Positions 33,160-52,389 of a DNA stretch of 64,000 nt are shown here, piece after piece; position 1 is the stretch's first letter, and each line of letters begins with the position of its first letter. Source of the DNA: Pedobacter heparinus DSM 2366 (GTDB lineage: Bacteria; Bacteroidota; Bacteroidia; Sphingobacteriales; Sphingobacteriaceae). The stretch covers positions 620,001 through 684,000 of the forward strand of contig NC_013061.1 of NCBI RefSeq assembly GCF_000023825.1. The letters run 5' to 3'. A program made the position numbers and the translations under genes. The notes beneath the pieces are model-generated. The model saw only the letters and a program-made list of their open reading frames with translations. It was not told the DNA's origin and did no database searches.

Positions 33160-33206
33160 GCACTCCATTCTGTGAGCAGCTTTAGCAACGCTTTTATCCA
33201 CTTCTT
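33160..33206 (+). repeat. 47-base direct repeat, copy 2 (leader of the first glycosyltransferase gene)
   Basis: It begins GCACTCCATTCTGTGAGCAG and continues CTTTAGCAACGCTTTTATCC. It aligns with the copy at 32466-32512, with TCTGTGAG in the first copy against CTGTGAG here. It lies 166 bases upstream of the glycosyltransferase start at 33372, just after the NusG-like gene. Confidence 0.85.
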
Positions 33207-33215
33207 TTTAAAATT

Positions 33216-36385: not shown

Positions 36386-36963
36386 GTTTAAAAAAATATT
36401 ATTGTCATCCTACAGCAATTGTAGATGAGGGTGCCATTATTGGTGATGATGTGAAGATCTGGCATTTCTCTCATATTATGCGGGATGCAAAAATTGGTAG
36501 TCGTTGTAATATCGGGCAGAATGTAATGATTGCAAGCCAGGTAGTTTTAGGTCAGAATGTAAAGGTTCAAAATAATGTATCTATTTATGAAGGTGTGATA
36601 TGTGAAGATGATGTTTTTCTGGGGCCTTCTATGGTTTTTACCAATGTAATTAATCCTCGTAGCGCCGTTAACAGAAGAGGTAAGTATTTAAGAACACATG
36701 TTGGAAAAGGAGCAAGTATTGGAGCCAATGCAACAATTGTTTGCGGCCATGATATTGGTAGTTATGCGTTAATTGGAGCGGGGGCTGTGATTATCAAACC
36801 AGTGTTACCCTATGCCTTAGTGGTTGGAAACCCGGCTAAACAAATAGGTTGGGTAAGTGAATACGGTCATCGGTTGATTTTTGATGAAGGATTTAAAGCC
36901 ATTTGTCCGGAAACTCAACAGCAATATGAATTGAAAGGTAATCTTATCATCAAGATCAGCTAA
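36382..36963 (+). CDS. Hexapeptide-repeat N-acetyltransferase (WbpD-like)
   Basis: 193 residues with left-handed beta-helix repeats throughout (for example IVDEGAIIGDDVKIWHFSHI, IGSRCNIGQNVMIA, VGKGASIGANATIVCGHDIG, YALIGAGAVI). It closely resembles WbpD/WlbB enzymes, which acetylate the 3-amino group of a UDP-2-acetamido-3-amino uronate. The RHAT-like segment NPRSAVNRRGKYLRTHV is typical. It is translationally coupled to the aminotransferase (four-base overlap) and to the oxidoreductase (one-base overlap). Confidence 0.9.
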   Translation: MSLKKYYCHPTAIVDEGAIIGDDVKIWHFSHIMRDAKIGSRCNIGQNVMIASQVVLGQNVKVQNNVSIYEGVICEDDVFLGPSMVFTNVINPRSAVNRRGKYLRTHVGKGASIGANATIVCGHDIGSYALIGAGAVIIKPVLPYALVVGNPAKQIGWVSEYGHRLIFDEGFKAICPETQQQYELKGNLIIKIS

Positions 36964-37979
36964 TGGCACATATAAGCTCAAAAGTAAAATTTGCAGTTAT
37001 CGGTTTTGGCTATATAGGAATGCGGCATGCAAATACCATTTTAAGTAACGAAAGTTGCGAATTGGTCGCTTTGATTGATGTTAAACAGCAGGATCCTCTG
37101 GCGATTGAGAAATATGATGTGCCTTTTTTCTTTTCTTTAGATGCCTTTTTTGATTCCGAAATTCAGGCAGACGTCATAACTATTGCCTCGCCAAATGGAT
37201 TGCATGCAGAGCATGCAATGAAATGCTTAAATAGAGGAAAGCATGTCGTTGTGGAAAAGCCGATGGCATTAAACAAATCTGATGCGGAAAAAATGATCTC
37301 CACTGCGCTTAGTGTAAACCGCCAGATCTTTGTCGTGATGCAGAACCGGTATGCTCCTCCTGTTACCTGGATTAAGGGATTACTTGAAAAAGAGCAGCTG
37401 GGAAAAATTTACCTGGTCCAGGTAAATTGCTTTTGGAACAGAGACGAACGATACTATAAAGCTGGCGGATGGCATGGTAAACAGGATATGGACGGTGGCC
37501 CTCTTTTTACGCAATTTTCACATTTTATAGATATCATCTATTGGCTTTTTGGTGACATCATTAATATTCAGGGCAGATTTAAAGATTATAACCATCAAAC
37601 ACTTACCGAGTTTGAAGATAGTGGCTTTGTGAGCTTCGATTTTATAAATGGAGGCATGGGAACCTTAAATTATTCAACTGCTGTTTGGAACCAGAACCTG
37701 GAAAGTTCCATGACAATTATTGCAGCAAACGGATCTATAAAGATTGGTGGTCAATACATGGATAAGGTCGAAATCTGCAATGTAAAGGGTTATGAAATGC
37801 CAGAGAATGATCATGGGGCCTCCAAGGGTTCAGTGGCTAATCACCAGTATGTGATCAGGAATGTGGTGGATGTACTAAACGGACGGGCTTCAATTGCAAC
37901 CAATGCATTGGAAGGGCTGAAGGTTGTGGATATCATTGAACGGATTTACAATTGCAAAATTCACATTTATAATCAATAG
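36963..37979 (+). CDS. Gfo/Idh/MocA-family sugar dehydrogenase (WbpB-like)
   Basis: A 338-residue NAD-dependent oxidoreductase. The Rossmann start VKFAVIGFGYIGMRHANTIL, the EKPMALN catalytic lysine motif (VVVEKPM) and the GGPLFTQFSHFIDIIYWLFGD region (with the active-site His) are clear. WbpB/WlbA enzymes oxidise C3 of UDP-GlcNAcA before transamination, so with the two preceding genes this would make a UDP-2,3-diacetamido sugar. No WbpA-type 6-dehydrogenase is visible nearby, so the uronate would have to come from elsewhere. Its stop is followed in the same frame by the remnant at 37980. Confidence 0.9.
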   Translation: MAHISSKVKFAVIGFGYIGMRHANTILSNESCELVALIDVKQQDPLAIEKYDVPFFFSLDAFFDSEIQADVITIASPNGLHAEHAMKCLNRGKHVVVEKPMALNKSDAEKMISTALSVNRQIFVVMQNRYAPPVTWIKGLLEKEQLGKIYLVQVNCFWNRDERYYKAGGWHGKQDMDGGPLFTQFSHFIDIIYWLFGDIINIQGRFKDYNHQTLTEFEDSGFVSFDFINGGMGTLNYSTAVWNQNLESSMTIIAANGSIKIGGQYMDKVEICNVKGYEMPENDHGASKGSVANHQYVIRNVVDVLNGRASIATNALEGLKVVDIIERIYNCKIHIYNQ

Positions 37980-38174
37980 TGGGTTTATATATTGGAGCCA
38001 CACCTCCTTAATGAAATCCCGGAAAATACATTTTTCCATGTGACGCATTTAATTGAGAAAATCAAAATCAGAACAGGGAAACTTGGTGCATTTCTGATAA
38101 GCGAAAAATCCTGGACGGACATCGGAGGATGGGATTTTTATTCCAAATTTCTAAACAATAACATATTGATCTAA
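37980..38174 (+). pseudogene. C-terminal remnant of a sugar nucleotidyltransferase
   Basis: The frame directly continuing after the oxidoreductase stop reads WVYILEPHLLNEIPENTFFH, then a stretch ending KSWTDIGGWDFYSKF. This is the C-terminal pattern of NTP_transferase-type sugar nucleotidylyltransferases (G-Y-[IL]-EP...W-x-DIG-x-x-x-Y). There is no start, no catalytic N-terminal domain and no room for one. It is best read as a decayed gene end, left by a deletion that joined it to the oxidoreductase. The TTG at 37992 is a formal start only. Confidence 0.7.
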
Positions 38175-38243: not shown

Positions 38244-38519
38244 ATGAAAAAATTAAGATTAAACAAGAGTTTTATTTCGAATCTTACCAGGGATGAAGCA
38301 GGTAAGATTATGGGAGGGAATGACGCAACCTGGGAGGAATGCTCGGACAGGTGTTCTGATTATTGTACGACTCCTACTTACGGTGATGACGCCACTTGTT
38401 ATACTGCAGGGGCTGGATGTCCAGGAACCGGCAGCTATGGCTGTGCTACCGACAACGGATGTCAGTCAGACCTATGTCCGGATTCATTACAAATGACCGA
38501 ATGCGGCCCGATTTGCTAA
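38244..38519 (+). CDS. lanA: Class I lanthipeptide precursor, Cys-rich, double-Gly leader
   Basis: 91 residues. The 25-residue leader (KKLRLNKSFISNLTRDE..., ending MGG) has the LxLNK...I..L pattern of Bacteroidota GG-leader precursors. The core is 66 residues with 10 Cys (33, 37, 41, 52, 59, 67, 73, 78, 87, 91) and 14 Ser/Thr, and it ends on Cys. The spacing C3-x-C3-x at the start (ECSDRCSDYC) and repeated Thr/Ser-Gly stretches would support many lanthionine rings. Neighbours encode LanC, a split LanB and a C39 exporter, so the call is strong. An inverted repeat follows. A poor -7 box (TATAGTTG at 38186) lies upstream. Confidence 0.92.
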   Translation: MKKLRLNKSFISNLTRDEAGKIMGGNDATWEECSDRCSDYCTTPTYGDDATCYTAGAGCPGTGSYGCATDNGCQSDLCPDSLQMTECGPIC

Positions 38520-38529
38520 TCATGTGAGC

Positions 38530-38557
38530 GAAGTAAATACCTCAGGGTATTTACTTC
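38530..38557 (+). terminator. Perfect hairpin after the precursor gene
   Basis: GAAGTAAATACC at 38530-38541 pairs perfectly with GGTATTTACTTC at 38546-38557, loop TCAG, ten bases after the precursor stop. No T-run follows. As an attenuator or stabilising hairpin it could keep precursor mRNA in excess over the downstream enzyme genes. Confidence 0.75.
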
Positions 38558-38604
38558 CTAAAATTATTGTAAATTCATTTTATTAGCTTTTTCAGATCAA
38601 AACT

Positions 38605-38612
38605 TACATTTG
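38605..38612 (+). promoter_or_regulatory. Candidate -7 box upstream of the receptor-like gene
   Basis: TACATTTG matches TANNTTTG, 35 bases before the ATG at 38648. A TTAG at 38583-38586 lies at about the -33 position but is imperfect. It may supply a separate promoter for the modification and export genes, downstream of the precursor hairpin. Confidence 0.4.
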
Positions 38613-38647
38613 ATATTAATCATAGGTTTATTAAATACGAATACATC

Positions 38648-41119
38648 ATGAAACAGCTTATCTTCGTTCTATTATCTGTAGTCACAGCACTATCTGCGAA
38701 AGCTCAGGAGAATGATCATGGCGCTGAGCAATTAAAAAAGCAGCTATCCCTTTTCTTAACCCATCACCCATCCAGCAATCTTTATCTGCAACTGGATAAG
38801 AACATTTATTCACCCGAAGAAACCATCTGGTTCAAGGCGTACCTGCTCTCTGATACCGTTACTGCCAACAAAGTATTATATGTGCGCATTACCGACGAGG
38901 ATAAAGAAATAGTGCTCAACGCCCAGTTTCCCATGTACGATATCCGCTCGCATGGCGATATTCAGCTGCGCAGCAATCTGGAAGAGGGCAAATACACCCT
39001 TTATGCCTATACCGACCGAATGATCAGCTATGGAGATACGAATGTGTTTGTGCAGCGCATTCAGATTAAAAAGATGACCGGCAAGAAACTGGAAGCCGAG
39101 GCCCAGGTAAGCGACACCACCCAACTGGTAAGAGGCGGTAAGGTGCAAGTGGTGACTGTTATCCGTGAAAGCGGCAAACCGGCAAAAAACGTTAAAGGCG
39201 AATACGAGCTGCTTGCAGGAGAAAAAGCCATTAAATACGGCAGGTTGAGTACCAATTTGTTTGGCGAAGCCTTTATCAATTTCACTTACCCGGAACTAAA
39301 AGACAATCAGTCGCTGAAAATCAATATGCTCTTTTGCCGGGATAATGATTACGCCGAGCTGTCGCTGAATCTGCCCCATGAAGGCAATCCGCTGAAAGTA
39401 AGTATTTATCCCGAAGGCGGACAGCTACTGGCTGGTGTCAGCGGCAAAGTAGCCATCGAAGTACTGGATATCCATCAGAATCCGATACCTACCGAACTGC
39501 TGGTAAAAAACGCGGGTCGACTTATAGCCAAATTAAGAACCAATAAACAGGGAATCGCTACCCTGAGCCTGAAGCCTGAGCTTGGTGCCACTTATACTGT
39601 AGAAACAGCAGGCAAAAAGAAGCAAACAATTGCCTTTCCAGAAATTATAAAACCCGCAGGCTATAGCCTAAAGCTGCACAGGAATAAAGAAGAGATAGAA
39701 GTAACGGTCTACAATAAAAACAAAGCAGGCAATGCCTTACTGGTACTTCGCTCAGCAAAAGAAGTGCTGTGGAGTCAATCCTTAAAGATTCCACCGGACG
39801 ACTCGGTAAAAGTCACTATACCGGCAGCAGGTTTCCCCAAAAATATCCTGAGCCTGGCGGTACTTGACGGGGAGAATAAACCGCAGACAGAGCGTCTCTT
39901 TCTGAATAAAGCCCAGGAAGATTATAGGGTAAGCATCAGCACCGACCGGAAAGATTACGGCCTTCAAAAGAAAGTGACAGTTACTGTAAAGATATCCGAT
40001 ACCCGGGGTAATCCCGTTGTGGCTAATCTTGCAGTAGGAGCTACGGAAAAGAACCGGATCGACAGCGCGGGTTACCGGACCATTTTACAGTCCTGGTATT
40101 ACCATCCCTTTGAGCATGCCAGCAGGAACAGGTTGCTGTCGGCCAAATCAGCAAACGAGACGGACGCTTTACTGATGGCAAACACCTGGGGCAACAACCA
40201 GTGGAAAACCATCAGTGATTACCAGCCCACAAGCCCTCCATTGCGCCTGGATAATACAGATGCTGCAATTGGAATGGTGATACCGACCGGTAAGAAGGAG
40301 ATAGAGGAGATTGACATCAAATCCACCGATATTAATTTCTCTCTAGCGGAGTTAAACAAAAGAAATATTCTCCAAACCAGGCGATTTACCATTAAACTCG
40401 ATAAAAATAGGATGTTTATGATACCGGCTTCTGAACTGTTGTCCCGTAAAGGGAAAGAATGGATGTTGGATATATACAAAGTAATAAAACCTGCTCCCCA
40501 GGTCAATTTTGAGGTGCAATGGAAGGATCATGATATCCATTATGATAACATTGTAGTAAAAGGAAGATCACTATTCGTGCCGGAAATTGTAACCTTTTTT
40601 TCGAGGCTCAAAAATCCTGGGGTATCTGATTTCAAAATGAACGGGATAAACCAATTAGCAGAAGTTACTGTAGGGGGTAAAGATGAGATAATCAGAAAGA
40701 GGCTAAAAGATAAATGTGCAGATTGGGTGTGTGGATACAATAACATTAATTGTTCAAGACATCCCACAGGTACCAAACCAGTAAAGGGCCAAACTTATTT
40801 TAAAAGGTCTAAAGGCATAGTGAACCTAGTCACCAATATAGGTTGCGACAACTACAGAGATGTCAGTTATATCAAAAATATCACCATTCCGGAGGAGTTT
40901 TATTTGCCCGATTATGATAGTGCACCATTTGGAAAATTCGATCCCCGTTCCACTATTTACTGGAACCCTAATTTGGTTACCGATGCAAACGGAACGGCAA
41001 CATTTAGTTTTTTTACCTCAGACATTATGGGCGAATTTGAGATCATAGCCCAAGGACTGGAAGTAAATACTTTTACACCGTTAATGGGGAAAGGAAATTT
41101 TAAAGTTGCTGGTCAATGA
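38648..41119 (+). CDS. Exported MG2/TonB-plug-like receptor protein of lanthipeptide loci
   Basis: 823 residues with a signal peptide (FVLLSVVTALSAKA). An MG2-like beta region begins at about residue 40 (LYLQLDKNIYSPEETIWFKAYLL, the hallmark of macroglobulin-like domains), then several Ig-like modules. A plug-like QLAEVTVGG stretch follows, and a Cys-rich insertion with C690, C695 and C702. The end (FDPRSTIYWNPNLVTDANGT) is shared with a large Bacteroidota envelope family. It lies between precursor and LanC, so it may act in product passage, sensing or self-protection. The precise function is not known. Confidence 0.7.
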   Translation: MKQLIFVLLSVVTALSAKAQENDHGAEQLKKQLSLFLTHHPSSNLYLQLDKNIYSPEETIWFKAYLLSDTVTANKVLYVRITDEDKEIVLNAQFPMYDIRSHGDIQLRSNLEEGKYTLYAYTDRMISYGDTNVFVQRIQIKKMTGKKLEAEAQVSDTTQLVRGGKVQVVTVIRESGKPAKNVKGEYELLAGEKAIKYGRLSTNLFGEAFINFTYPELKDNQSLKINMLFCRDNDYAELSLNLPHEGNPLKVSIYPEGGQLLAGVSGKVAIEVLDIHQNPIPTELLVKNAGRLIAKLRTNKQGIATLSLKPELGATYTVETAGKKKQTIAFPEIIKPAGYSLKLHRNKEEIEVTVYNKNKAGNALLVLRSAKEVLWSQSLKIPPDDSVKVTIPAAGFPKNILSLAVLDGENKPQTERLFLNKAQEDYRVSISTDRKDYGLQKKVTVTVKISDTRGNPVVANLAVGATEKNRIDSAGYRTILQSWYYHPFEHASRNRLLSAKSANETDALLMANTWGNNQWKTISDYQPTSPPLRLDNTDAAIGMVIPTGKKEIEEIDIKSTDINFSLAELNKRNILQTRRFTIKLDKNRMFMIPASELLSRKGKEWMLDIYKVIKPAPQVNFEVQWKDHDIHYDNIVVKGRSLFVPEIVTFFSRLKNPGVSDFKMNGINQLAEVTVGGKDEIIRKRLKDKCADWVCGYNNINCSRHPTGTKPVKGQTYFKRSKGIVNLVTNIGCDNYRDVSYIKNITIPEEFYLPDYDSAPFGKFDPRSTIYWNPNLVTDANGTATFSFFTSDIMGEFEIIAQGLEVNTFTPLMGKGNFKVAGQ

Positions 41120-41152
41120 TTTTAAAAAAACATACTTAATAATAGATACGGA

Positions 41153-42382
41153 ATGAATAACAGGAAATGGGAACCCCTATTTAAAAAAGGAGAAAAGCAA
41201 TTGGGGGTAATTATCAATGTGCTTGAAAATACAGTATTTGAGAAAAGCTACTCCTTGTTAGGAATTGGAAGTACAGGAGCGGCCATTTTACTATATTATT
41301 ATTGGCTGTATTCGAAAGATGATAAATACCTTGAAAAAGCGAATGCCATTATCCTGAAAAATTTTGAATTATTACCCCACAGCACACATATTCATAGTTT
41401 ATGTAGTGGCACTGCAGGATTTAATTGGGCCGTAAATCACTTAATCAGTAATGGGCTTATTGAGGGAGATAGCAATGAATTATTTTCTGAAGACGATCCT
41501 TTTTTATATTCGGTAATGAAAAAGGATATCAACGAAGGCAAGTATGATTTTCTTCATAATGCCTTAGGTATTGGCCTGTACTTTTTAAATCGAAACACCA
41601 CTCAGTCACTGGCTTATTTAGAATCGTTGATTTCAAGTCTCGAAAAAAGTGCTGAAACAGACATTAAAGGAATAAAATGGCGATCATTAGTTAACCAGGA
41701 AGGACCAAAAGAAAAAAAAGAAGTTTATAATCTGAGCTTATCTCATGGTATGGCAAGTATCATTGCTTTTTTGAGTAAAGCATGCCAGGCTGATATATTC
41801 AGGGAAAAAACAAAAGATTTACTTTGCAGGGCAACCACTTTTATTTTAAGCCATAAGCGGGATGCTCCGGATCCAGAATATGGTTCATACTTCCCTTCTA
41901 CTATTTCTGTGAATGGAGATCCACCCATTAGCGCTAGTAGGCTGGCATGGTGTTATGGTGATCTTGGGCTTGGCTATGCTTTATGGCAGGCTTCAAAAAT
42001 TATACAAAATACTGAATGGGAACGTCTGGCTTTAGACGTATTAGTACATACTACTATCCGAAAGGATGTTGTTAAAGAACGTGTCAACGATGCAGGGATT
42101 TGCCATGGGGCTGCCGGCATTGCCCATATTTATAACCGTCTTTATCAACACACGGGCATCAGCCATTTTAAAGATGCTGCCATCTATTGGCTTGAAGATG
42201 TGCTAAACAAAGCTGTTTTTACTGATGGGCTGGCAGGCTATAAATCATGGCATCCACCTCAATATGGAGGATGGAAAACTAGTGTAGGATTACTGGAGGG
42301 TATTTCAGGAATCGGCTTAGTGCTTCTTGCAGCGGTGAGCGATATAGAACCTAAGTGGGACGAATGTTTATTATTGAGTTAA
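41153..42382 (+). CDS. lanC: LanC-like lanthionine cyclase
   Basis: A 409-residue LanC-family protein with the alpha-toroid pattern of SLLGIGSTGAAILLYYYW, LCSGTAGFNWAV, LSLSHGMASIIAFL, LLEGISGIGLVLL. The zinc ligands are in WCYGDLGLGYAL (C267) and ICHGAAG (C317, H318), as in NisC. It would add Cys thiols to dehydroalanine or dehydrobutyrine to close lanthionine rings. The LanB_N gene starts directly after its stop (TAA then ATG). Confidence 0.93.
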   Translation: MNNRKWEPLFKKGEKQLGVIINVLENTVFEKSYSLLGIGSTGAAILLYYYWLYSKDDKYLEKANAIILKNFELLPHSTHIHSLCSGTAGFNWAVNHLISNGLIEGDSNELFSEDDPFLYSVMKKDINEGKYDFLHNALGIGLYFLNRNTTQSLAYLESLISSLEKSAETDIKGIKWRSLVNQEGPKEKKEVYNLSLSHGMASIIAFLSKACQADIFREKTKDLLCRATTFILSHKRDAPDPEYGSYFPSTISVNGDPPISASRLAWCYGDLGLGYALWQASKIIQNTEWERLALDVLVHTTIRKDVVKERVNDAGICHGAAGIAHIYNRLYQHTGISHFKDAAIYWLEDVLNKAVFTDGLAGYKSWHPPQYGGWKTSVGLLEGISGIGLVLLAAVSDIEPKWDECLLLS

Positions 42383-44656
42383 ATGAAAAAAACGAATCCT
42401 TACCTGCCCTTTGAGCAGTTTGTTTATAGAAGTCCGCTTTTACCGTTCAATACATTTATTCAACACCTGACCGAAATTTCTGCTTCGGAAGAGCGCTTCA
42501 AAAACCTGTTATCCAATAAAATAATCTGGGAAGCTATTTATTTGGCCTCTCCGGTGCTTTTTGAAGAGCTGCTGAAATACTTACAGAAAGGTTTACCGGA
42601 TAAAAAAGAGGAGGAACGGATCAAATATTCTATGGTTCGTTACCTTGGCCGGATGTCTACAAGATGTACCCCATTTGGGCTGTTTGCAGGCTGTTCGGTG
42701 GGCCGCTTCAATGAACAAACAACTATTGCATTAAATAAAACAGAACAGTACCAGCGCCATACCCGCTTAGATATGACTTACCTGTGCGCCCTGGCACAGG
42801 AGCTGGCCGGTTCGCCGGAAGTAAAACCATACTTCCGCTATTTCAGCAATACCAGTATTTACAGATTTGGCGACAAAATCAGGTATGTTGAATATTTCTA
42901 CCGGAGTACGAGGCGAATTCATAGAATTTCGGCTGTAGATTATTCGGAATATCTTGACAAGATTTTGCGCGAAGCTTCCCAGGGAAGAAAAATAAACGAA
43001 CTGGCTGAATTAATAGTAGATGATGAGATCAGCATGGAAGACGCTTCAGCGTTTATTGACGAACTTATCAATTCTCAGTTGCTGGTGAACGAAATGGAAC
43101 CCTCGGTTACCGGAAAGGAATTTCTTTATCAGGCCATTCAGAAATTCGAAGAAATAGAAAAAACTATTCCGGGCAAAAAAGAATATATATCCGGTTCGCT
43201 TCAGCTATTAAAACAGGTTAGCAAGGTATTGGAAGATATAGATAAGAACGTTATTGGTAATACACTTCATCTTTACGGCGATATAACTTCAGAAATAAAA
43301 AGATTTAAAACCACGTTTGAACCTAAGTACCTGTTCCAGACGGATATGATTAAACCCGCCGATACATCGTTCCTGGGAAGAGATGTAATTGATGATCTGA
43401 AGGGAGCCATCGAATTTTTTAATAAAATTACAGCTAAGCCCGGGGAAACAAATTTGTCGAAATTTCGGGAGGCTTTCCGGGATCGGTACGAAGACAGGGA
43501 AATGCCTTTGCTACAGGTGCTGGATAATGAGGCCGGTATCGGGTACACTCAAGCTGGAAGTACAGGCGATATTAACCCACTGGTGGATGATTTAATGATT
43601 CCCCAGCCAGGTAGCAGTAATGGCAATAAAGTTATATGGAGTGGGTTACAATCTATATTGCTTAAAAAGTATATAGAGGCAAAAACAACAAATCAATATA
43701 CTATTGAGCTGTCAGACAAAGAGTTCGAACATTTAACGACCCAATGGAACGACTTACCGCTAACTATATCTGCTATGTTCCGGATAGTACAGGACGATAA
43801 GAATGGCAGGACAGTTTATATGAAAACAGCAGGAGGATCGAGCGCCGCCAATCTTTTGGGCCGCTTTTGCTATGCCGATAAACGGATTGAAGAACATGTA
43901 CTGGATATTACGCAGAAGGAAGAGGAGCTTAACCCCGATGTCATATTTGCTGAAATCGCGCATCTGCCCGAATCACGTACCGGGAATATTTTATTGCGCC
44001 CGGTTTTACGTCCGTACGAAATTCCGTATCTCGCCAAACCGGGAGTCGAAAAGGATTATCAAATTGCTTTGTCTGACTTAATGGTTTCTGTACGAAATGG
44101 CAGAATTCTGCTTCGTTCAAAGCGTTTGAATAAAGAAATAATACCACGACTGAGCAGCGCGCATAATTATAGCTTTAAAGCCATGCCGGTATATCATTTT
44201 TTATGCGACATGCAGGTACAAAATGGCCGCTCTGCTGTAGGATTTAACTGGGGAACTCTGGCGAATGAACACAATTGGTTACCCAGGGTAAAATATAATA
44301 ATATCATTTTTTCGGTAGCAAGGTGGACCATAAAACGCGAGGAAATTAAAGTCTTTATAGAAACAAAAGATGACCAGGTTTTAGTGGAATCAGTTACTGC
44401 ATGGCGACTGCCATTGCAAATACCAAAGCATGTGGTGTTGGACGATGGCGACAATGAACTCTTTGTTGATTTAACCAATGCGCTAAGTGTCAGGACTTTA
44501 TTTTCTGTTGTTAAAAAGCGAAATTCTTTCTTATTGGAAGAGTTTCTTTTTAACCCTGAGACAGCGGTAGTTAAAGGTGAAGAAGGGGTTTTTACCAATG
44601 AATTTATTGTATCTTTTTATAAGGAGAAACAAAATAACATCAATAATTATGGATAA
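42383..44656 (+). CDS. lanB: Lantibiotic dehydratase, N-terminal (glutamylation) half of a split LanB
   Basis: 757 residues of the LanB N-terminal type, with the family motif RMSTRCTPFGLFAG at residues 90-103 and RLDMTYLCALAQEL after it. It carries the tRNA-Glu-dependent glutamylation half of the enzyme but not the C-terminal elimination domain, which is a separate gene immediately downstream. The same two-gene arrangement is known from Bacteroidota lanthipeptides such as the pinensins. It starts right after the LanC stop and overlaps the SpaB_C gene by eight bases. Confidence 0.93.
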   Translation: MKKTNPYLPFEQFVYRSPLLPFNTFIQHLTEISASEERFKNLLSNKIIWEAIYLASPVLFEELLKYLQKGLPDKKEEERIKYSMVRYLGRMSTRCTPFGLFAGCSVGRFNEQTTIALNKTEQYQRHTRLDMTYLCALAQELAGSPEVKPYFRYFSNTSIYRFGDKIRYVEYFYRSTRRIHRISAVDYSEYLDKILREASQGRKINELAELIVDDEISMEDASAFIDELINSQLLVNEMEPSVTGKEFLYQAIQKFEEIEKTIPGKKEYISGSLQLLKQVSKVLEDIDKNVIGNTLHLYGDITSEIKRFKTTFEPKYLFQTDMIKPADTSFLGRDVIDDLKGAIEFFNKITAKPGETNLSKFREAFRDRYEDREMPLLQVLDNEAGIGYTQAGSTGDINPLVDDLMIPQPGSSNGNKVIWSGLQSILLKKYIEAKTTNQYTIELSDKEFEHLTTQWNDLPLTISAMFRIVQDDKNGRTVYMKTAGGSSAANLLGRFCYADKRIEEHVLDITQKEEELNPDVIFAEIAHLPESRTGNILLRPVLRPYEIPYLAKPGVEKDYQIALSDLMVSVRNGRILLRSKRLNKEIIPRLSSAHNYSFKAMPVYHFLCDMQVQNGRSAVGFNWGTLANEHNWLPRVKYNNIIFSVARWTIKREEIKVFIETKDDQVLVESVTAWRLPLQIPKHVVLDDGDNELFVDLTNALSVRTLFSVVKKRNSFLLEEFLFNPETAVVKGEEGVFTNEFIVSFYKEKQNNINNYG

Positions 44657-45602
44657 GGGGATAAAAAGGACATTTATACCAGGGGATAAATGGATTTATT
44701 TTAAATTGTATACCGGGTATAAAACAGCAGATAACATTTTAAGTAAAACATTACCGGCTATTATCTCTCAGCTAAATACCGAAAATGTGTTAGATAAATG
44801 GTTCTTTATCCGTTATTCTGATCCTAAATTTCATTTGCGGCTGCGGTTCTGCTTAAAGGATGCAAAAAACATTTCCTCTGTAATCTCCCTGTTTAACCGG
44901 GAAATGAGCCCTTACATTGATGAAGATCTGATATGGAAAGTGCAGATAGACACTTATCAGCGGGAACTGGAACGTTACGGTACAACAACCATGGAACATT
45001 CCGAATCTATGTTTCATTTTGATAGTGAAGCAATACTTAGCATACTTAGTATACTTAGTATCCCTGAATATAATGAATCCGATCAACAACGATGGCTGCT
45101 GGCATTAAAAATACTCGATGCCCTGCTCTTTGATTTTGAACTCGGCATGGACCAAAAAATTGCATTATTAACTGAGTTAAGCGAAGATTTTAAAAAAGAG
45201 ATGGGATTTACCATAAAAGGATATAAACTGCAATTGGATAAAAAATTCAGGACTCATCGTAAATTAATAGAAGAAATAATGGGCACACCCGAACAAGCAT
45301 CATGGGCAATCCCTTTAATGGAAATTATCAGACAAAGATCCTTAAAAGTAAAGCCAATTGCCGGGACATTGTTGCAAATGGAAATGAATCAGAAATTAGA
45401 AGTTTCGTTACATAGTTTATTGAGAAGTTATATTCATATGACGATCAATCGCTTGTTCAGGTCAAAGCAACGTGTATATGAGCTGGTTATTTATGATATG
45501 CTGGAAAGATATTATTCTTCTTTAAAAGCAAGAAGCAAAAATACTGCAGGCAAAATGCACCGGGCTTCCATTGAGGCATTACCACAGGTTGTGATAACTT
45601 AA
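44649..45602 (+). CDS. SpaB_C-type (elimination) half of the split LanB / thiopeptide-type biosynthesis protein
   Basis: 317 residues. The start WIYFKLYTGYKTADNILSKTLPAI and the signature WFFIRYSDPKFHLRLRF are the SpaB_C/thiopeptide-type domain. In a full LanB this domain removes glutamate from the activated Ser/Thr to leave dehydroamino acids. I chose the ATG at 44649; the longer frame starts on a GTG inside the LanB_N gene and adds residues without family support. It overlaps LanB_N by eight bases. A short direct repeat (ATACTTAGC / ATACTTAGT) at 45033-45061 lies inside it. Confidence 0.9.
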   Translation: MDKGIKRTFIPGDKWIYFKLYTGYKTADNILSKTLPAIISQLNTENVLDKWFFIRYSDPKFHLRLRFCLKDAKNISSVISLFNREMSPYIDEDLIWKVQIDTYQRELERYGTTTMEHSESMFHFDSEAILSILSILSIPEYNESDQQRWLLALKILDALLFDFELGMDQKIALLTELSEDFKKEMGFTIKGYKLQLDKKFRTHRKLIEEIMGTPEQASWAIPLMEIIRQRSLKVKPIAGTLLQMEMNQKLEVSLHSLLRSYIHMTINRLFRSKQRVYELVIYDMLERYYSSLKARSKNTAGKMHRASIEALPQVVIT

Positions 45603-45669
45603 GTCGCTGTAACGATCGTATAAAATAAATAAATTAAAGCAGCAATTTTACAATTCTAATAATACTAAA

Positions 45670-47847
45670 TTGAAGTTTCCTCATTACAAACAGCACGACA
45701 AAATGGACTGCGGCCCTACCTGTTTACGTATGGTTGCAAAATATTATGGACGAAACTATAGCCTTCGGCGTTTAAGAGAGCTTTGCCAGATTAACCGAGA
45801 AGGAGTTTCTTTGCTGGGAATCAGCGAAGCAGCAGAAAAGGTCGGTTTCCGCTCTTCCGGTGTTAAAATAGATCTGGAACAATTAAAAGAGGCCGAATTG
45901 CCATGTATCTTGCACTGGCGCCAGAATCATTTTGTAGTGCTTTACCGGATAGAAAAGGGGATTTATTATGTAGCTGATCCGGCTAAAGCATTGATTTCCT
46001 ATACCGAAAAAGAATTTACCAGAAACTGGGTAAGCAATAAAGAACTTTACGATGGGATAGCGCTGTTTATTTCTCCTACACCTAAATTTTATGAAGAAGA
46101 GGGAGAAAAAAACAGAGGGCTTAGCTGGTCATTCCTGTTGCGGTACCGCTATGCTTACAGCCGCCTGATTGTTCAGCTATTTTTTGGTTTAGGTATTGGC
46201 AGTATCTTGCAATTAATCACTCCCTTTTTAATGCAATCTGTAGTTGATATCGGTATCAACACCCGGAATATTAACTTTATTTACCTTATTCTGATTGCCC
46301 AGGTGATGCTTTTTTTAGGGAGTGCCAGTGTTAATTTTATTCGTTCCTGGATCATGTTACACATGACCACCCGCATCAATGTGTCCATATTAACAGACTT
46401 CCTCACCAAGCTGATGCGGCTGCCCATGAATTTTTTTGATACAAAAATGACAGGCGATATTATGCAGCGGATGGGCGACCATAAGCGGATAGAAGGTTTT
46501 TTAACCGGTACTACTTTAAATACTTTGTTCTCTTTCGTTAACCTCATTGTATTTGGAGTTGTATTGGCTTATTACAATACTGGTATCCTGCTTATCTTCC
46601 TGATCAGCACCTCTTTGTATGCTGCATGGATACTCCTTTTTATGAAACGCCGCCGTGAACTGGACTTTAAGCGTTTTGATAACTCGTCTAAGAATCAAAG
46701 CAATATGATCGAGTTAATTGGCGGTATACAGGAAATTAAACTTCATAATTGCGAACAGCAGAAACGCTGGCAGTGGGAAAGCATCCAGGCTACTATGTTT
46801 AAAGTCAGTATTAAGAGTCTGGCATTGAGTCAGTACCAGCAGGCCGGGTCGATGTTTATTAACCAGGCAAAAAACATACTTATTTCCTTTATAAGTGCCA
46901 AAGCCGTTATCGACGGTCACCTCTCACTTGGAGGCATGATGGCTGTGCAATATATGGTTGGGCAGTTAAATAGTCCGATAGAACAATTCTTAGGATTGAT
47001 CCAGAGCTTTCAGGATGCTAAGATCAGCCTTGAGCGATTAAATGAAGTTCATCAGATGGAAGATGAAGAATCTACTAATAAGCACTGGAACCAGGCGCTT
47101 CCAACAGATAGAAGTATCCGGATTGCCAATCTAACATTTCGTTACCCGGGGGCAGGTAATGAGCCTGTTCTGGAAAAGATTAATTTAGATATTCCCCAAG
47201 GTAAAACCACTGCCATTGTGGGGATGAGCGGGAGCGGTAAAACTACCATATTGAAGCTACTCATGCGTTTTTATGAACCGGAAAAAGGGGAGATAGAAAT
47301 AGGCACTGCCAAATTAAGTCAACTTAGCTTTAAAGTATGGCGGAACCATTGTGGAATGGTAATGCAGGATGGTTTTATTTTTTCGGATAGCATAGCGAAT
47401 AATATTGGCGTAAGCGATGAATATCCTGACCTCGATAAACTTCAGCATGCAATTAAAATAGCTAATATTGAGGAATTTGTGGATAGCCTGCCGCTTGGGC
47501 TCAATACCAAGATTGGTTCCGGTGGGAATGGCATCAGCCAGGGACAAAAACAACGGATACTCATAGCCCGGGCAGTATACAAGGATCCGGAATATATTTT
47601 CTTTGACGAAGCCACCAATTCGCTTGATGCTAATAATGAACGGGTGATTATGGATAATCTGCAGGACTTTTTTGCCGGAAAAACCGTAGTTGTGGTAGCG
47701 CACCGCTTAAGTACAGTTAAAAATGCCGATAACATTGTTGTACTGGATAAGGGCAGGATAATTGAGCAGGGAACCCATGCTGAATTATCACTGCTTAAGG
47801 GCGAGTACTTCGGACTTGTTAAAAATCAATTAGAACTGGCAATGTAG
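45670..47847 (+). CDS. lanT: Peptidase-containing ABC exporter (C39, LanT/bacteriocin type)
   Basis: 725 residues: C39 double-glycine peptidase (residues 1-130; Cys14 in DCGPTC, His87 in RQNHFVVLY, Asp103), six-helix membrane domain, and ATPase (Walker A GMSGSGKTT, signature ISQGQKQR, Walker B YIFFDEAT, switch His VVVAHRLST). The signature is ISQGQ, not LSGGQ. It would cut the precursor after GG and export the core. The start is a TTG at 45670; no ATG gives a better C39 start. HlyD follows after 63 bases. Confidence 0.95.
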   Translation: MKFPHYKQHDKMDCGPTCLRMVAKYYGRNYSLRRLRELCQINREGVSLLGISEAAEKVGFRSSGVKIDLEQLKEAELPCILHWRQNHFVVLYRIEKGIYYVADPAKALISYTEKEFTRNWVSNKELYDGIALFISPTPKFYEEEGEKNRGLSWSFLLRYRYAYSRLIVQLFFGLGIGSILQLITPFLMQSVVDIGINTRNINFIYLILIAQVMLFLGSASVNFIRSWIMLHMTTRINVSILTDFLTKLMRLPMNFFDTKMTGDIMQRMGDHKRIEGFLTGTTLNTLFSFVNLIVFGVVLAYYNTGILLIFLISTSLYAAWILLFMKRRRELDFKRFDNSSKNQSNMIELIGGIQEIKLHNCEQQKRWQWESIQATMFKVSIKSLALSQYQQAGSMFINQAKNILISFISAKAVIDGHLSLGGMMAVQYMVGQLNSPIEQFLGLIQSFQDAKISLERLNEVHQMEDEESTNKHWNQALPTDRSIRIANLTFRYPGAGNEPVLEKINLDIPQGKTTAIVGMSGSGKTTILKLLMRFYEPEKGEIEIGTAKLSQLSFKVWRNHCGMVMQDGFIFSDSIANNIGVSDEYPDLDKLQHAIKIANIEEFVDSLPLGLNTKIGSGGNGISQGQKQRILIARAVYKDPEYIFFDEATNSLDANNERVIMDNLQDFFAGKTVVVVAHRLSTVKNADNIVVLDKGRIIEQGTHAELSLLKGEYFGLVKNQLELAM

Positions 47848-47910
47848 ACGCGGATACATTTAAGGCCGGAGCATATTGATTCACAATGATTAAAATTCAA
47901 TAAATAAATT

Positions 47911-49200
47911 ATGCCAATTCTATATCAGGAGCCCGAACAGTGCCATTCTGAAGAAATGCAGGATATTATCTCAAAACCCCCAGCCTGGCTTTTAAGATGG
48001 GGGCTTTCAGTAATTTTTGCTGTTTTAATATTAATGATTAGTTTATCGGCACTGATAAAGTACCCTGATATAGTAAAAACACAGCTAAAAATAACTTCTG
48101 CCAATGCTCCTAAATCGGTTATAAGTAAAATTTCCGGTCAATTGGTTAAAGTAACGGTTCAAGAGAATCAGGCTGTCATAACAGATCAGCCGCTTGCTTA
48201 TATTGAAAGTACGGCAAGCCATGAGCAGGTCCTCCAATTATTGGATGAATTGAAAAACTTGCAAGCCAATCTGTCTGAAGGGATGATTCCGCTAAAATTA
48301 TTAGCTACTCCAAAAAATGTATTCTTAGGAGAATTGCAGAATGCATACCAAAGTTTTTATCAATCGTTTTTAATGTATCAATCTTCCATTGCAAATGGAT
48401 TTTATTTGAAAAAGAAAGTGTTTTTACAAAAAGATCTCTTGTCGATCCTTGATCAAAAAGAACAATTGCTGGTACAACAAAAGCTTCAGGAAAAAGACTA
48501 TGAATTGGGAAAGAAGGAATTTGAAATGCACCAAAAGCTTTTTGAACAAAAAGTAGAAGCCCCAATGGAATTGAAACGGGAGGAGAGTAAATTTATAGCT
48601 AAAAGATATCCGCTTCAACAAACCGAATCGGCATTGCTTTCCAATAGCATCATCTATTCTGCTAAGGAAAAGGAGATTATGGAACTGGAGAACCTGATCA
48701 GCGAAGAAAAATTAAAGTTTATTCAAGCGCTGAATAATTTTATAAGCAATATAGAAGATTGGAAGAAAAAATATGTTCTTACAGCACCACAACCCGGTAA
48801 AGTAGCCTTTTTGGGGATAGTACAAGAAAAGGAGTTTTTAAATGCCGGGCAGGAAGTACTATATATCAACCCGGGCAGCACTGATTTTTTCGGCGAGATA
48901 CATATACCGCAATATAAAATGGGAAAGGTATATAAAGACCAGGAAGTGCTGATTAAATTAAAAAGCTATCCCTTTGAAGAGTATGGAATAATCCGGGGAA
49001 ACATCCAATCTATAGCTGATATACCTTATAAAGACAGTGTTTTTGTTTCGAGAGTAAGTATTAGCAACAAAGGCATGTCTGGCCTTAAGAGAAACATCCG
49101 GTTAAAAAATGGCATGATAGCAGATGCCGAGATCATTACAGAAGACGCCACTTTATTAAAAAGATTAATACATAATATCATTAAGATCATTAACAAGTAA
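47911..49200 (+). CDS. HlyD-family membrane fusion protein
   Basis: 429 residues. One N-terminal membrane segment (LLRWGLSVIFAVLILMISLSALI, about residues 27-49), a biotinyl-lipoyl-like fold (NAPKSVISKISGQLVKVTVQENQAV), then long coiled coils (about residues 105-265), a second lipoyl-like half (LTAPQPGKVAFLG) and a C-terminal beta barrel. It links the exporter to an outer-membrane factor, which is not encoded here. The GT2 gene start overlaps its stop by one base. Confidence 0.92.
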   Translation: MPILYQEPEQCHSEEMQDIISKPPAWLLRWGLSVIFAVLILMISLSALIKYPDIVKTQLKITSANAPKSVISKISGQLVKVTVQENQAVITDQPLAYIESTASHEQVLQLLDELKNLQANLSEGMIPLKLLATPKNVFLGELQNAYQSFYQSFLMYQSSIANGFYLKKKVFLQKDLLSILDQKEQLLVQQKLQEKDYELGKKEFEMHQKLFEQKVEAPMELKREESKFIAKRYPLQQTESALLSNSIIYSAKEKEIMELENLISEEKLKFIQALNNFISNIEDWKKKYVLTAPQPGKVAFLGIVQEKEFLNAGQEVLYINPGSTDFFGEIHIPQYKMGKVYKDQEVLIKLKSYPFEEYGIIRGNIQSIADIPYKDSVFVSRVSISNKGMSGLKRNIRLKNGMIADAEIITEDATLLKRLIHNIIKIINK

Positions 49201-50315
49201 TGAGGGACTATAAAATATCATTTTGTACCGTCTGTATGAACAGGCTGCACCATCTGAAACAAACACTACCTGTTAATTTGCTTGATAACCAAGCTTACCT
49301 CAACCTGGAGTTTATACTACTGGATTATAATTCTTCTGACGGACTTGAGCATTGGGTTAAAAAAAATATGCAGGAACACCTTGAAAGCGGAAGGCTTGTT
49401 TATTACAAAACCTGTACACCTATGCACTTTAACAGAAGTCATTCCCGTAACCTGGCTTATAAATTGGCTGATGGCGATTTAATTTGTAACATAGATGCTG
49501 ATAACTACACGGGAGATGGCTTTGCCGCTTATATAAATGAGGAATTTAAAAAGAACGAGAATATATTTCTGACTACGCTTAACTCCATTGAAGCCAGAGG
49601 GAAAGATGTATTGGGAAGGATGTGTGTCAAAAAAAGTGACTTCTATAAGATTGGAGGATATGACGAACGAATGGTTTATTACGGTTTTGAAGATTATGAT
49701 TTTGCAAACCGATTGGAGTTCAATAATGTCAGAAGGACCTTCATAACAGGTGATCAGGATTATTTCAGGGCTATTACCCATTCCAATACGGAAAGGCTCT
49801 CAAATGAGTATGCATATGGAAATCTGACAACCTTATTGGTTAATTATCTTAGTCCCTGCAGTACAGATTTTTTATTCTTGTTTAGTAACAAAGAATATAG
49901 GAGAAATATTATTATTGATCCTAAGGCTTACCCATTTTCTGAACCCTTATCAGAATTTCAGAAATCTCAAATAAGGTATCCGCAATCAACTTTAAACGCT
50001 TTGTGGCTGGAAGGAGAATGGAGTGGGGATGAAAGCGAAATAAATTTGAAAAGTAAAGAAGGGATTCAAGAACGATTATCCTTTAACGAAGAAAGAAAAT
50101 GTTTTATTTCTGATTTATGTACCGAAGCATCAGACTTTTATAAGATTCTTAATCCGATGTTTATACAGCAAGCCATTATGTTTTACAGTCAATTCACTAA
50201 CAGAGTAATCATGCATCAAAATAAAATAGAAAGGCGGATTATTGTGAATGGGCTTAGATTTGGTAATGACGTAGTCTATAAAAATTTCGATGATCAAACA
50301 CCTATCACTACCTAA
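49200..50315 (+). CDS. GT2 (GT27-like) glycosyltransferase
   Basis: 371 residues. GT-A motifs: ISFCTVCMNRLHHLKQTLPVN, FILLDYNSSDGLEHWV, CNIDADNYTGDGF (DxD at DAD) and the acceptor/metal loop GGYDERMVYYGFEDYDFANRLE, as in GT27-type and galactosyltransferase C-domain proteins. A ~110-residue C-terminal extension (after residue ~260) is not recognised. No signal peptide: cytoplasmic. It is translationally coupled to HlyD (one-base overlap) and followed after two bases by a SpaB_C-like gene, so it belongs to the lanthipeptide operon. Acceptor unknown; a peptide is possible. Confidence 0.85.
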   Translation: MRDYKISFCTVCMNRLHHLKQTLPVNLLDNQAYLNLEFILLDYNSSDGLEHWVKKNMQEHLESGRLVYYKTCTPMHFNRSHSRNLAYKLADGDLICNIDADNYTGDGFAAYINEEFKKNENIFLTTLNSIEARGKDVLGRMCVKKSDFYKIGGYDERMVYYGFEDYDFANRLEFNNVRRTFITGDQDYFRAITHSNTERLSNEYAYGNLTTLLVNYLSPCSTDFLFLFSNKEYRRNIIIDPKAYPFSEPLSEFQKSQIRYPQSTLNALWLEGEWSGDESEINLKSKEGIQERLSFNEERKCFISDLCTEASDFYKILNPMFIQQAIMFYSQFTNRVIMHQNKIERRIIVNGLRFGNDVVYKNFDDQTPITT

Positions 50316-50317
50316 TT

Positions 50318-51196
50318 ATGGATGTATTGCAAGAAGCTGTTATCGTAGCTGCTATTTATTATAACCGATCATCCTGGCATGAGCTGATTAAATTTATAAA
50401 CCCTCTTTTAAAGGAAGCACATAAAAATGGGATCCTTGATACTTATTATATAAATTTTGGCCTTAATGGAGGAGACCATATAAAGCTTATTCTGAAGCCT
50501 TCAGGCAATGGAAATGAATTTGAGAAAGAAACCGGCTTGTTGATTAAACAGTTTCTATTAGGCAATCCTTCTGAAACAAGGGGCATTGAGTATCCGCTCA
50601 ATACCTTTTTCATGGACCATCCTAATAATTCAGTCAGGTTTTATCAAACCAACGAGTCTACTTTTTTCAATTCAATTGCGTATAAAGATTCGGAAGATAT
50701 GCGATGGCAAATATCACAAGCTTTACTGGAAGCATTTGGGAGTGAGGAAATTGATTTAGCAAGTATTTATACATTTATAAGCTATATGCAAATTGGGATT
50801 CTTAAAGCTGCTTATCCGGACATCAAACTAGCACAAGCTAAATCTACCGACCTGATCTGCTACTTGAATGAGCTCAAAGATTTAGAAGAAGTTGAAACAG
50901 ATATTAGAGGGGAAAAAGACAATCAGTATTTTAAACAACTGTTTGAAGAAAATCAGGATATTTTGCTTGAAATTGTAAGAGATATATGGGAACCTGGTGG
51001 CGCTGATTCCGAATTAAAATGGATGGAAGTCTGGGAGGCTGCTTGTAAAAACTTTTTAACAGGGGTAGACTTTAAATCTTCCTTTATTTTGTTAAGCAAT
51101 CTTGTCTATGAACAAATAGGTTTTATGCACAATAAAAATTCAGTTCGGTTGTCACTAAAGCTTATATCTGCATCGTTTCGGACCGGTGGCCGGTAG
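50318..51196 (+). CDS. Stand-alone SpaB_C-like (thiopeptide-type bacteriocin biosynthesis) protein
   Basis: 292 residues. The N-terminal YYNRSSWHELIKFINPLLKE, DTYYINFGLNGGDHIKLILKP corresponds to the WxFxRY...DPxxHLRLR region of SpaB_C, with GGDHIKL in place of DPKFHLRLR. The C-terminal helical half aligns with the short protein at 34687. A split LanB needs only one such domain, already supplied at 44649, so this is an extra copy. Related stand-alone domains in other RiPP systems do elimination, pyridine formation or amino-acid addition. Which one applies here is open. Confidence 0.7.
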   Translation: MDVLQEAVIVAAIYYNRSSWHELIKFINPLLKEAHKNGILDTYYINFGLNGGDHIKLILKPSGNGNEFEKETGLLIKQFLLGNPSETRGIEYPLNTFFMDHPNNSVRFYQTNESTFFNSIAYKDSEDMRWQISQALLEAFGSEEIDLASIYTFISYMQIGILKAAYPDIKLAQAKSTDLICYLNELKDLEEVETDIRGEKDNQYFKQLFEENQDILLEIVRDIWEPGGADSELKWMEVWEAACKNFLTGVDFKSSFILLSNLVYEQIGFMHNKNSVRLSLKLISASFRTGGR

Positions 51197-51270: not shown

Positions 51271-52389
51271 ATGCAGTTATTAGTTATTGGCGATGCCTTT
51301 AGTCCATACACAGTTGCCTTTTCCCGTTTCTTGAAACAGCATTCCCCAATAATCACGATTGATATTATTAATACTCGCCATAATGTATCAGATATTGACC
51401 TGACGGACCATATCCGGGGCGCCTATGATCAATTTTATCCAGGTCAGTCCATCAGTGCTATAACTAGCCAGATAAATGAAAAAATATGCCAATACGATGT
51501 TATTTGCCTGCATGGTTTTTGGGATGTAGTTTTATCCATTTATGAAAGGCTAAACCATAAAGATCTATTTACGGTAGGCGTGATATGGGGATCCGATTTT
51601 TATCGAAGAAATCATGATACGATGCCTCTGTCCGGCATATTTGACCGGTGCGATCGTGTTCTGGTGCAGACAGATGAAATGGAAGCGGATCTCCTAAAAG
51701 TTTATCCCCTTCTTCCGAAAAAAATACGCAAGTGTCTGTTTGGTATTGAGCCGCTAGAAAGTTTGACGGCTATGAGCGGTATATCTTCTGCAAAGGCTAA
51801 GCGTTCTCTTGGCTTGGCGTCAGACTCTTTTGTTTTAACATGTGGATATAATGCCAGTCCTTTTCAAAATCATACAGCAATCATTGATCAGCTGACTGCC
51901 ATAATATCAAGGCTACCGGCGAACCATGTTTTAATTTTCCCCTTTACCTATCAAAAAGATACGCGCTATATGTCTCTTATTGAAAATGTAATGAAGAAAT
52001 CACCACTTACTTATTATTTTATTGAGGACTTTATGGATAGTGAGCAAGTAAGCTTATTATGTTTAGCTACTGATATTTTCATTCAGGTTCAAACAACCGA
52101 TGCATTATCTGCTTCAATGCGCGAGCACCTGTTTGCAAAAAGCATTGTAATTACTGGAGGGTGGCTTCCATACCAGATTTTAGTACGAAATGGTTTTTAT
52201 TTTGAAACGATTGATGAACTGAATTCTTTAGGAACGACGATTACCGGCATTTTAGATAATTATACCGAAGTGAAACGAAAAGTTGAATTATACAATACGC
52301 CTGATAAATTTGAACAGTACAGATGGCCTAAAGTTATCCAACCGTGGTATGAAGCCTTTTTGGAATATCAAACGGAGAAACGGGATTAG
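51271..52389 (+). CDS. GT-B glycosyltransferase (GT4-like)
   Basis: A 372-residue two-Rossmann-fold glycosyltransferase. The N-terminal domain starts QLLVIGDAFSPYTVAFSRFLKQH, with VICLHGFWDVVLS, VGVIWGSDFYRR and FDRCDRVLVQTDEME. The C-terminal domain has LTCGYNASPFQNH, NHVLIFPFTY and the donor-binding part TDIFIQVQTTDALSASMREHLFAKSIVITGG. It is the last intact gene of the island and starts 75 bases after the SpaB_C-like gene. It probably adds a sugar in the same pathway as the upstream GT2. Confidence 0.8.
   Translation: MQLLVIGDAFSPYTVAFSRFLKQHSPIITIDIINTRHNVSDIDLTDHIRGAYDQFYPGQSISAITSQINEKICQYDVICLHGFWDVVLSIYERLNHKDLFTVGVIWGSDFYRRNHDTMPLSGIFDRCDRVLVQTDEMEADLLKVYPLLPKKIRKCLFGIEPLESLTAMSGISSAKAKRSLGLASDSFVLTCGYNASPFQNHTAIIDQLTAIISRLPANHVLIFPFTYQKDTRYMSLIENVMKKSPLTYYFIEDFMDSEQVSLLCLATDIFIQVQTTDALSASMREHLFAKSIVITGGWLPYQILVRNGFYFETIDELNSLGTTITGILDNYTEVKRKVELYNTPDKFEQYRWPKVIQPWYEAFLEYQTEKRD

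Follow-up and report, generated by a model that had tools for sequence, protein, structure and literature searches.

Class I lanthipeptides with split LanB enzymes and GG/LxLxK leaders were described from Bacteroidetes in 2020 (Walker et al., PMC7268733). According to the parts of that paper drawn on here, split LanBs are reported from thiopeptides as well as from several class I clusters, and the Bacteroidetes clusters with LxLxKx5L/GG leaders encode a C39 exporter together with LanB and LanC, some of them with a split LanB and some with an extra elimination-domain homologue. The pinensins of Chitinophaga pinensis are likewise made with a split LanB and a LanC (PMC7268733, same parts). For the stand-alone elimination-domain proteins of lanthipeptide clusters, these parts propose an unknown modification and report fusions to PIMT methyltransferases; a partnership with glycosyltransferases or an occurrence independent of LanB is not described in them. 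The locus analysed here lies in a 64,000-nucleotide stretch of DNA from Pedobacter heparinus DSM 2366 (the window). With the Bacteroidetes clusters it has in common the GG site, the C39 exporter, LanB/LanC, the split LanB, the extra elimination-domain homologue and probably the leader type, and with the pinensins the phylum, split LanB and LanC; compared with the pinensins, its core is 66 amino acids long with 10 Cys. A class I cluster with a split LanB and a GG leader is an already known kind. The most interesting part of the locus is the pair formed by a glycosyltransferase (GT_B) and a diverged SpaB_C-fold protein (SpaBl), together with the sugar genes upstream.

Judged from its sequence, the region 38244-51196 holds a cluster for a class I lanthipeptide of the Bacteroidota type, as the original prediction held. 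The LanB, LanC, C39-ABC and HlyD proteins match curated families far above chance, each named gene was found where it had been placed, and LanB and LanC fell into lanthipeptide families (PF04738, PF14028 and PF05147). All features given here are on the forward (+) strand. The precursor gene lanA (38244..38519) encodes 91 amino acids, with the leader MKKLRLNKSFISNLTRDEAGKIMGG followed after GG by a 66-amino-acid core containing 10 Cys and 14 Ser/Thr by residue count. A GG-leader, Cys-rich precursor had been predicted; the Cys content agrees, while both NCBIfam leader models remain below their curated cutoffs (lant_leader_L1b, E 7.6e-5, 22.7 bits against 27; lant_leader_L1a, 17.9 bits against 22). 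That the precursor is real finds support in a homologous precursor, which occupies the same position in a near-orthologous cluster of Sphingobacterium corticibacterium (L031). The core had been said to resemble no named lanthipeptide; its relative in S. corticibacterium is itself uncharacterised, and a precursor-only search over 99 relatives gave just weak matches driven by the leader.

Analysis of the modification genes revealed a LanC cyclase (41153..42382; PF05147, E 2.7e-42) with the zinc ligands C267, C317 and H318 exactly as predicted and flanking motifs that align with the solved LanC 8byk; tblastn of LanC against plasmids found none but distant matches (23-29% identity). LanB is encoded by two overlapping genes, again in agreement with the prediction. 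The glutamylation half (42383..44656; Lant_dehydr_N PF04738, E 1e-172; MadB 9g04, E 2.6e-41) keeps the motif RMSTRCTPFGLFAG at residue 90, and the elimination half, SpaB_C (44649..45602; Lant_dehydr_C PF14028, E 1.3e-70; TIGR03891, E 1.2e-78), retains HLRLRF, ERYG and IHMTINR, that is, motifs of the HxRxR, ERYG and IHxxxNR class. The overlap is 8 nt with ATG 44649, the likelier start of the second half, whose reading frame is also open from GTG 44577. The split had been taken as a hallmark of pinensin-like systems. It is not diagnostic of them, since the same kind of glycosyltransferase gene stands beside split LanBs (the window, L031, L063, L069 and L082) and fused ones (L018, L026, L039, L050, L056, L073 and L086). 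Export is represented by a C39-peptidase ABC exporter of the PCAT type (45670..47847; PF03412, E 7e-38, with PF00664 and PF00005), 81% identical to its P. cryoconitis homologue, and by an HlyD-type adaptor (47911..49200; PF13437, E 3e-17). An exported MG2-domain protein (38648..41119; PF01835, E 6e-8) is a conserved member of the cluster, since in L031 a homologue of 47% identity is flanked by lanA and lanC; it may serve as an immunity protein or surface receptor.

The open reading frames at 49200-51196 and the upstream sugar genes had been left uninterpreted. The first, GT_B (49200..50315), is a GT-A-fold glycosyltransferase (PF10111, E 6.7e-12; PF02709, E 4e-8), in whose family alignment DAD (99-101) is invariant and EDxD conserved; its predicted model (pLDDT 95.7) matches the folds of K4CP, heparosan synthase and GalNAc-T. 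SpaBl (50318..51196) matches PF14028 below the cutoff (E 0.016), and hhalign gave 94.7% for SpaBl against true SpaB_C. A PDB sequence search with SpaBl found no relative; its kinship came from the predicted fold, an AlphaFold model of pLDDT 89 for which all 12 entries at Z 15.6-17.9 have the LanB/aza-cyclase fold. The eliminase motifs vary little or not at all among 17 true SpaB_C proteins but are lost in 56 SpaBl proteins; in the window and in this 56-sequence family the second Arg and ERYG are replaced (HIKLIL and PNNSV). The residues conserved in SpaBl (G52, W20, P84, N103/N104 and W239) fit a presenting or a catalytic role alike. The HlyD, GT_B and SpaBl genes overlap or stand 2 bp apart.

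Searches from both partners revealed that they occur together. Among the other Pedobacter loci that were found with SpaBl and were long enough to judge, all 10 of 10 have a GT_B homologue within 20 kb, in 8 of 10 within 60 bp. Starting from GT_B, SpaBl was found in 57 of 80 Bacteroidota loci (62 of 80 with a larger profile), and the two genes lie on the same strand no more than 150 bp apart in 45 of the 80. A C39 exporter is present in 44/57 loci with SpaBl and 8/23 without (Fisher p 6e-4). Dozens of Bacteroidota loci that have C39 exporters and GG-leader substrates carry the pair, mostly as neighbours, and LanB is missing from most of these loci. Pedobacter sp. ok626 and P. psychroterrae have GT/SpaBl loci yet neither PF04738 nor LanC in 99% complete genomes; LanC is absent from all five SpaBl genomes checked. 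In the glycosyltransferase tree, modules with and without LanB are intermixed (nine changes, at least three of them forced). Natural fusions were also found: a single 814-amino-acid protein joins a SpaB_C-like part to GT11 and Glyco_transf_7C, another joins a glycosyltransferase (PF03407) to a SpaB_C-like C-terminal half and, in one case, GH18 is joined to such a half. SpaBl is rare; a profile search of a phylum sample matched 3 of 395 genomes, too sparse for rates, namely its own and two weak partial matches that fall inside LanB-sized frames of 939-940 amino acids. Some putative GG-leader substrates are about 250 amino acids long; no Pfam family matched them, so their toxin-like nature is an impression from motifs.

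The predicted interval 38244-51196 proved too short, the likely operon set extending from UpxY (32520) to the end of a glycosyltransferase gene (52389). This final gene of the run, GT_C (51271..52389), is GT4-like by a weak match (PF13439, E 0.03). At the other edge are an UpxY-family transcription antiterminator (32520..33026; NF033644, 123 bits, cutoff 100), a GT2-type glycosyltransferase, GT_A (33372..34703; PF00535, E 1.3e-5), whose homologue in L036 (44% identity) adjoins a GT_B/SpaB_C-like pair, and a 192-amino-acid protein consisting of a SpaB_C-like C-terminal half alone (34687..35265; profile positions 127-282, E 1.6e-11; 25% identity to SpaBl). A 35-nt element precedes both UpxY (32475..32509) and GT_A (33168..33202, 86% identical to the first copy). 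Across the whole genome of 5.17 Mb, a search allowing up to three mismatches found its 22-nt core at just these two sites, and the element is a candidate UpxY recognition or leader element. Three sugar genes follow: a DegT/WbpE-like aminotransferase (35258..36385; PF01041, E 5e-103; WbpE 3nyu, E 4e-91), a WlbB/WbpD-like hexapeptide N-acetyltransferase (36382..36963; 3mqg, which we take to be WlbB, E 1e-61) and a WlbA/WbpB-like Gfo/Idh/MocA dehydrogenase (36963..37979; 3q2i, E 4e-53, and 3q2k, E 3e-49, both presumably WlbA). By sequence the trio resembles the WlbA/B/C pathway to UDP-GlcNAc3NAcA.

Overall, our analysis suggests, at a probability of about 60%, that the product of the locus is a class I lanthipeptide bearing a sugar as well, attached through GT_B and a leader-presenting SpaBl. 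By analogy with the biochemistry of these families, the core Ser/Thr would be glutamylated by the 42383-44656 protein and converted to Dha/Dhb by the elimination half (44649-45602), LanC would close these on Cys to give up to 10 thioethers, and the C39 domain would cleave after GG and export the product. Comparative genomics suggests that GT_B and SpaBl put a sugar on the leader-bearing precursor, SpaBl acting as a subunit of the LanB-elimination fold that would bind the GG leader and offer the peptide to GT_B. The peptide is probably sugar-coated in addition to its rings because the pair recurs across Bacteroidota, even in organisms that make no rings. GT_B and SpaBl probably form a Bacteroidota module of their own, mostly acting on non-lanthipeptide GG substrates and here joined to lanthionine formation. 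The WlbA/B/C-like genes could supply UDP-2,3-diacetamido-2,3-dideoxyglucuronate as one donor; extension of the glycan by GT_A and GT_C is the least certain step.

Alternatively, the product may be a plain class I lanthipeptide, untouched by the glycosyltransferases, SpaBl and the sugar genes, which would belong to an adjacent surface-polysaccharide locus; we consider this unlikely. In its favour, the genes upstream include an UpxY antiterminator and WlbA/B/C-like enzymes, both typical of polysaccharide loci. The sugar trio and UpxY may indeed belong to a neighbouring locus of that kind, since neither is found in the L031 operon, a gap of 264 bp precedes lanA and the G+C of 32520-35265 is lower. 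For the pair itself the evidence points the other way: its genes are packed against HlyD, it tracks C39 exporters and GG substrates phylum-wide, and inside the L031 operon the glycosyltransferase and SpaBl have SpaB_C on one side and the exporter on the other, free of intervening polysaccharide genes, a synteny that led us to reject GT_B as an unrelated polysaccharide gene. To our knowledge, no LanB-fold protein has a role in polysaccharide synthesis.

It is less probable still that the dehydrated peptide is the substrate of SpaBl as a second enzyme, working as eliminase or as [4+2] aza-cyclase, as raised for stand-alone elimination-domain proteins in the parts of PMC7268733 drawn on here. The predicted fold is that of the TbtD/PbtD aza-cyclases and LanB eliminases, and the window has a LanB as a source of Dha. 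Loss of HxRxR, ERYG and IHxxxNR, however, led us to reject a second eliminase, the partner of SpaBl is a glycosyltransferase even in fusions, and the two Pedobacter genomes without PF04738 have no LanB in the same cell from which an aza-cyclase could draw Dha. SpaBl could instead hold a catalytic role of its own. There is a very slight chance that it works with GT_B by Ser/Thr glycosylation and then elimination or transfer of the sugar, yielding dehydro-amino acids independently of LanB, because an elimination fold beside a possibly Ser/Thr-activating enzyme recalls LanB glutamate addition-elimination, yet the eliminase residues are lost and the five genomes checked have no LanC to use Dha.

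Returning to SpaBl as a presenter of peptides, its pairing and fusion with glycosyltransferases and its presence in LanB-less genomes would give stand-alone elimination-domain proteins a concrete role as partners of a peptide glycosyltransferase. We see somewhat less than an even chance for the broader proposal that, with GT_B and SpaBl as its founding pair, there is an undescribed glyco-RiPP system in Bacteroidota, whose peptide presenter, and fusion domain for glycosyltransferases, arose from a LanB-elimination fold lacking eliminase residues, and that the window holds a natural hybrid of it with class I lanthipeptide synthesis that makes a glycosylated product. If the partner role is right, the pair would flag a wide range of glycosylated peptides and proteins that are secreted in a phylum underexplored for RiPPs, and offer a ready-made tool to glycosylate GG-leader peptides, including lanthipeptides. 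A literature search that covered few subscription journals found no glycosylated class I lanthipeptide from Bacteroidota and no link between SpaB_C/PF14028 and glycosyltransferases.

Comparison with known systems places SpaBl nearest in predicted fold to the TbtD/PbtD aza-cyclases and LanB elimination domains (Z up to 17.9), and among these solved relatives TbtD (5wa4) binds a leader peptide. SpaBl differs from them by an identity of 8-13%, the loss of the eliminase motifs, a glycosyltransferase partner and its occurrence without any LanB. The LanB-less SpaBl loci are similar to glycocins of the sublancin type in their GG-leader Cys-rich peptides, C39 exporter and GT2-type glycosyltransferase, but differ in their LanB-fold partner, HlyD adaptor and putative substrates that include proteins of about 250 amino acids. 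NAI-112 is a class III lanthipeptide. The predicted product of the window would share the combination of lanthionine and sugar with NAI-112 and with cacaoidin, which belongs to class V (PMC8068269).

The class I lanthipeptide cluster of the original prediction is real, and its enzyme and transport genes were all matched in Pfam/NCBIfam scans with very low E-values. On the forward strand these are LanC (41153-42382), the glutamylation half LanB_N (42383-44656), the elimination half SpaB_C (44577/44649-45602), the C39-ABC exporter (45670-47847) and HlyD (47911-49200), and the zinc ligands claimed for LanC (C267, C317, H318) are all present. The glutamylation half retains the R-S-R-TPFGLFAG motif; the elimination half retains HxRxR, ERYG and IHxxxNR motifs that are alignable with NisB and MadB. 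The precursor gene lanA (38244-38519) encodes a 25-aa leader, followed by a core of 66 aa that contains 10 Cys and 14 Ser/Thr; the leader belongs to a type already known from class I lanthipeptides of Bacteroidetes and scores under the curated cutoff of lant_leader_L1b.

Analysis of the diverged SpaB_C-like protein SpaBl (50318-51196) predicts an elimination-domain fold: all 12 top matches to its model (pLDDT 89) are LanB elimination domains and thiopeptide aza-cyclases (Z 15.6-17.9), the next match falling to Z 7.6. Profile comparison with true SpaB_C (94.7%) agrees with the fold match, and several proteins of the family score above or close to the PF14028 cutoff. The motifs of true eliminases have been lost, and a PNN(S/T) motif occurs where ERYG would be. 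The glycosyltransferase GT_B (49200-50315) has a GT-A fold (pLDDT 95.7) and an invariant DAD motif; its best structural matches are chondroitin/heparosan polymerases and polypeptide GalNAc-transferases. Natural fusions of SpaB_C-like domains to glycosyltransferases were found in two layouts, SpaB_C-like with GT11 and GT7C, and a PF03407 glycosyltransferase with the C-half. A fusion of glycosyl hydrolase 18 to the C-half, found once, near a GT_B/SpaBl pair (L078 6550-8367, MAG Bacteroidia bacterium), is possibly a glycopeptide-trimming enzyme.

Among 145 Pedobacter genomes, the window's genome included, a SpaBl-only query gave 10 other loci of judgeable length; all 10 carry a GT_B homologue, in eight at ≤60 bp from SpaBl. 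A GT_B query of public genomes returned 80 loci, almost all of them in Bacteroidota and spread over many families of that phylum, with SpaBl in 57 by the first profile and in 62 by a larger one; in 45 of the 57 the two genes are on the same strand ≤150 bp apart, SpaBl lying directly downstream in 42. The C39 exporter is present in 44/57 loci with SpaBl vs 8/23 without (p 6e-4). LanB is also present in only nine of the 57 within the locus stretch fetched. Two Pedobacter genomes with a pair locus (both 99% complete) lack LanB genome-wide, and LanC is absent from all five such genomes tested. Loci with and without LanB are mixed in the glycosyltransferase tree, which was built quickly and leaves many of its branchings open; it gives nine changes, at least three of them forced by well-supported branches. 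LanC-like genes lie near GT_B/SpaBl in Bacteroides rodentium (L071 12182-12916) and Ulvibacterium marinum (L061 12335-13549), with LanB undetected in these 20-kb stretches. Extra LanB_N relatives (frames of ~880-970 aa; match weak or in two pieces) occur in many Pedobacter genomes (G009, G110, G047, G004, G123, G172, G030); they resemble conserved paralogues that may serve something other than lanthipeptide synthesis.

From established LanB, LanC and C39 biochemistry, LanB would dehydrate the precursor, LanC would cyclise it, and the C39 exporter would cut the leader and export the product. Based on the pairing, the fusions, the LanB independence and the SpaB_C fold, which in TbtD binds the leader peptide (PDB 5wa4, entry title), we infer that GT_B with SpaBl would glycosylate the leader-bearing peptide. 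The candidate substrates encoded beside the pair carry GG leaders; some are rich in Cys, and others are ~250 aa long, with variable ends and with linkers rich in Gly, Tyr and Ser. The ~250-aa proteins (L021 8150-10581; L022 6938-7693; L023 11498-12226; L024 15057-15821; L025 9669-10439) adjoin GT_B/SpaBl and a C39 exporter, show SGGYGGYGG-type linkers with variable C-terminal ends, and have no clear Pfam family; their layout recalls interbacterial polymorphic toxins.

A forward-strand gene run extends from the UpxY antiterminator (32520) to a GT4-like gene (52389). Within it, the GT2-type glycosyltransferase GT_A (33372-34703), a half-size SpaB_C-like protein and three sugar genes (35258-37979) overlap one another by 1-17 bp. 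The sugar genes match entries for solved structures of WbpE (E 4e-91), WlbB (1e-61) and WlbA (4e-53), and their product is presumably UDP-2,3-diacetamido-2,3-dideoxyglucuronate of the Wlb/Wbp pathway; genes for the first step, sugar-nucleotide 6-dehydrogenases, are elsewhere in the P. heparinus genome. A 35-nt element precedes both UpxY (32475-32509) and GT_A (33168-33202) in copies 86% identical, and its core has no further occurrence in the whole genome, which suggests a UpxY-controlled transcript. The repeat is a candidate target of the antiterminator. After a 264-bp gap follow lanA, the MG2 protein gene (38648-41119), lanC, the lanB halves, exporter, HlyD, GT_B and SpaBl, mostly spaced by 0-130 bp. 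A 60-aa open frame at 37992-38174, which contains FLISEKSWTDIGGWDFYSKFLNN and is without a match in Pfam, resembles a sugar nucleotidyltransferase tail and is possibly a gene remnant between the sugar genes and lanA.

An orthologous cluster with a homologous precursor in Sphingobacterium corticibacterium (L031) contains lanA, MG2, lanC, lanB_N, spaB_C, GT_B, SpaBl, exporter and HlyD, and is without the sugar trio. Judged by this gene content, MG2, GT_B and SpaBl are part of the lanthipeptide cluster; the trio is an optional or local addition. MG2-like proteins also occur in the LanB-less SpaBl loci L080 and L084, so the MG2 protein of the window, which has a Cys-rich stretch (KDKCADWVCGYNNINCSRHPTG), may act with the exported peptides as an immunity protein or a surface partner.

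The cluster as originally predicted is a further member of an already described kind, since PMC7268733 describes, for Bacteroidetes or class I clusters generally, LxLxKx5L/GG leaders in class I lanthipeptides, LanBs that are split, and additional proteins of the elimination-domain type. That paper gives no settled role for the extra elimination domain and reports fusions to PIMT methyltransferases. Because neither the glycosyltransferase partnership nor the LanB-independent occurrence of the SpaB_C-like domain was found in the open-licence literature searched, the locus of the window is set apart as a variant of this known kind.
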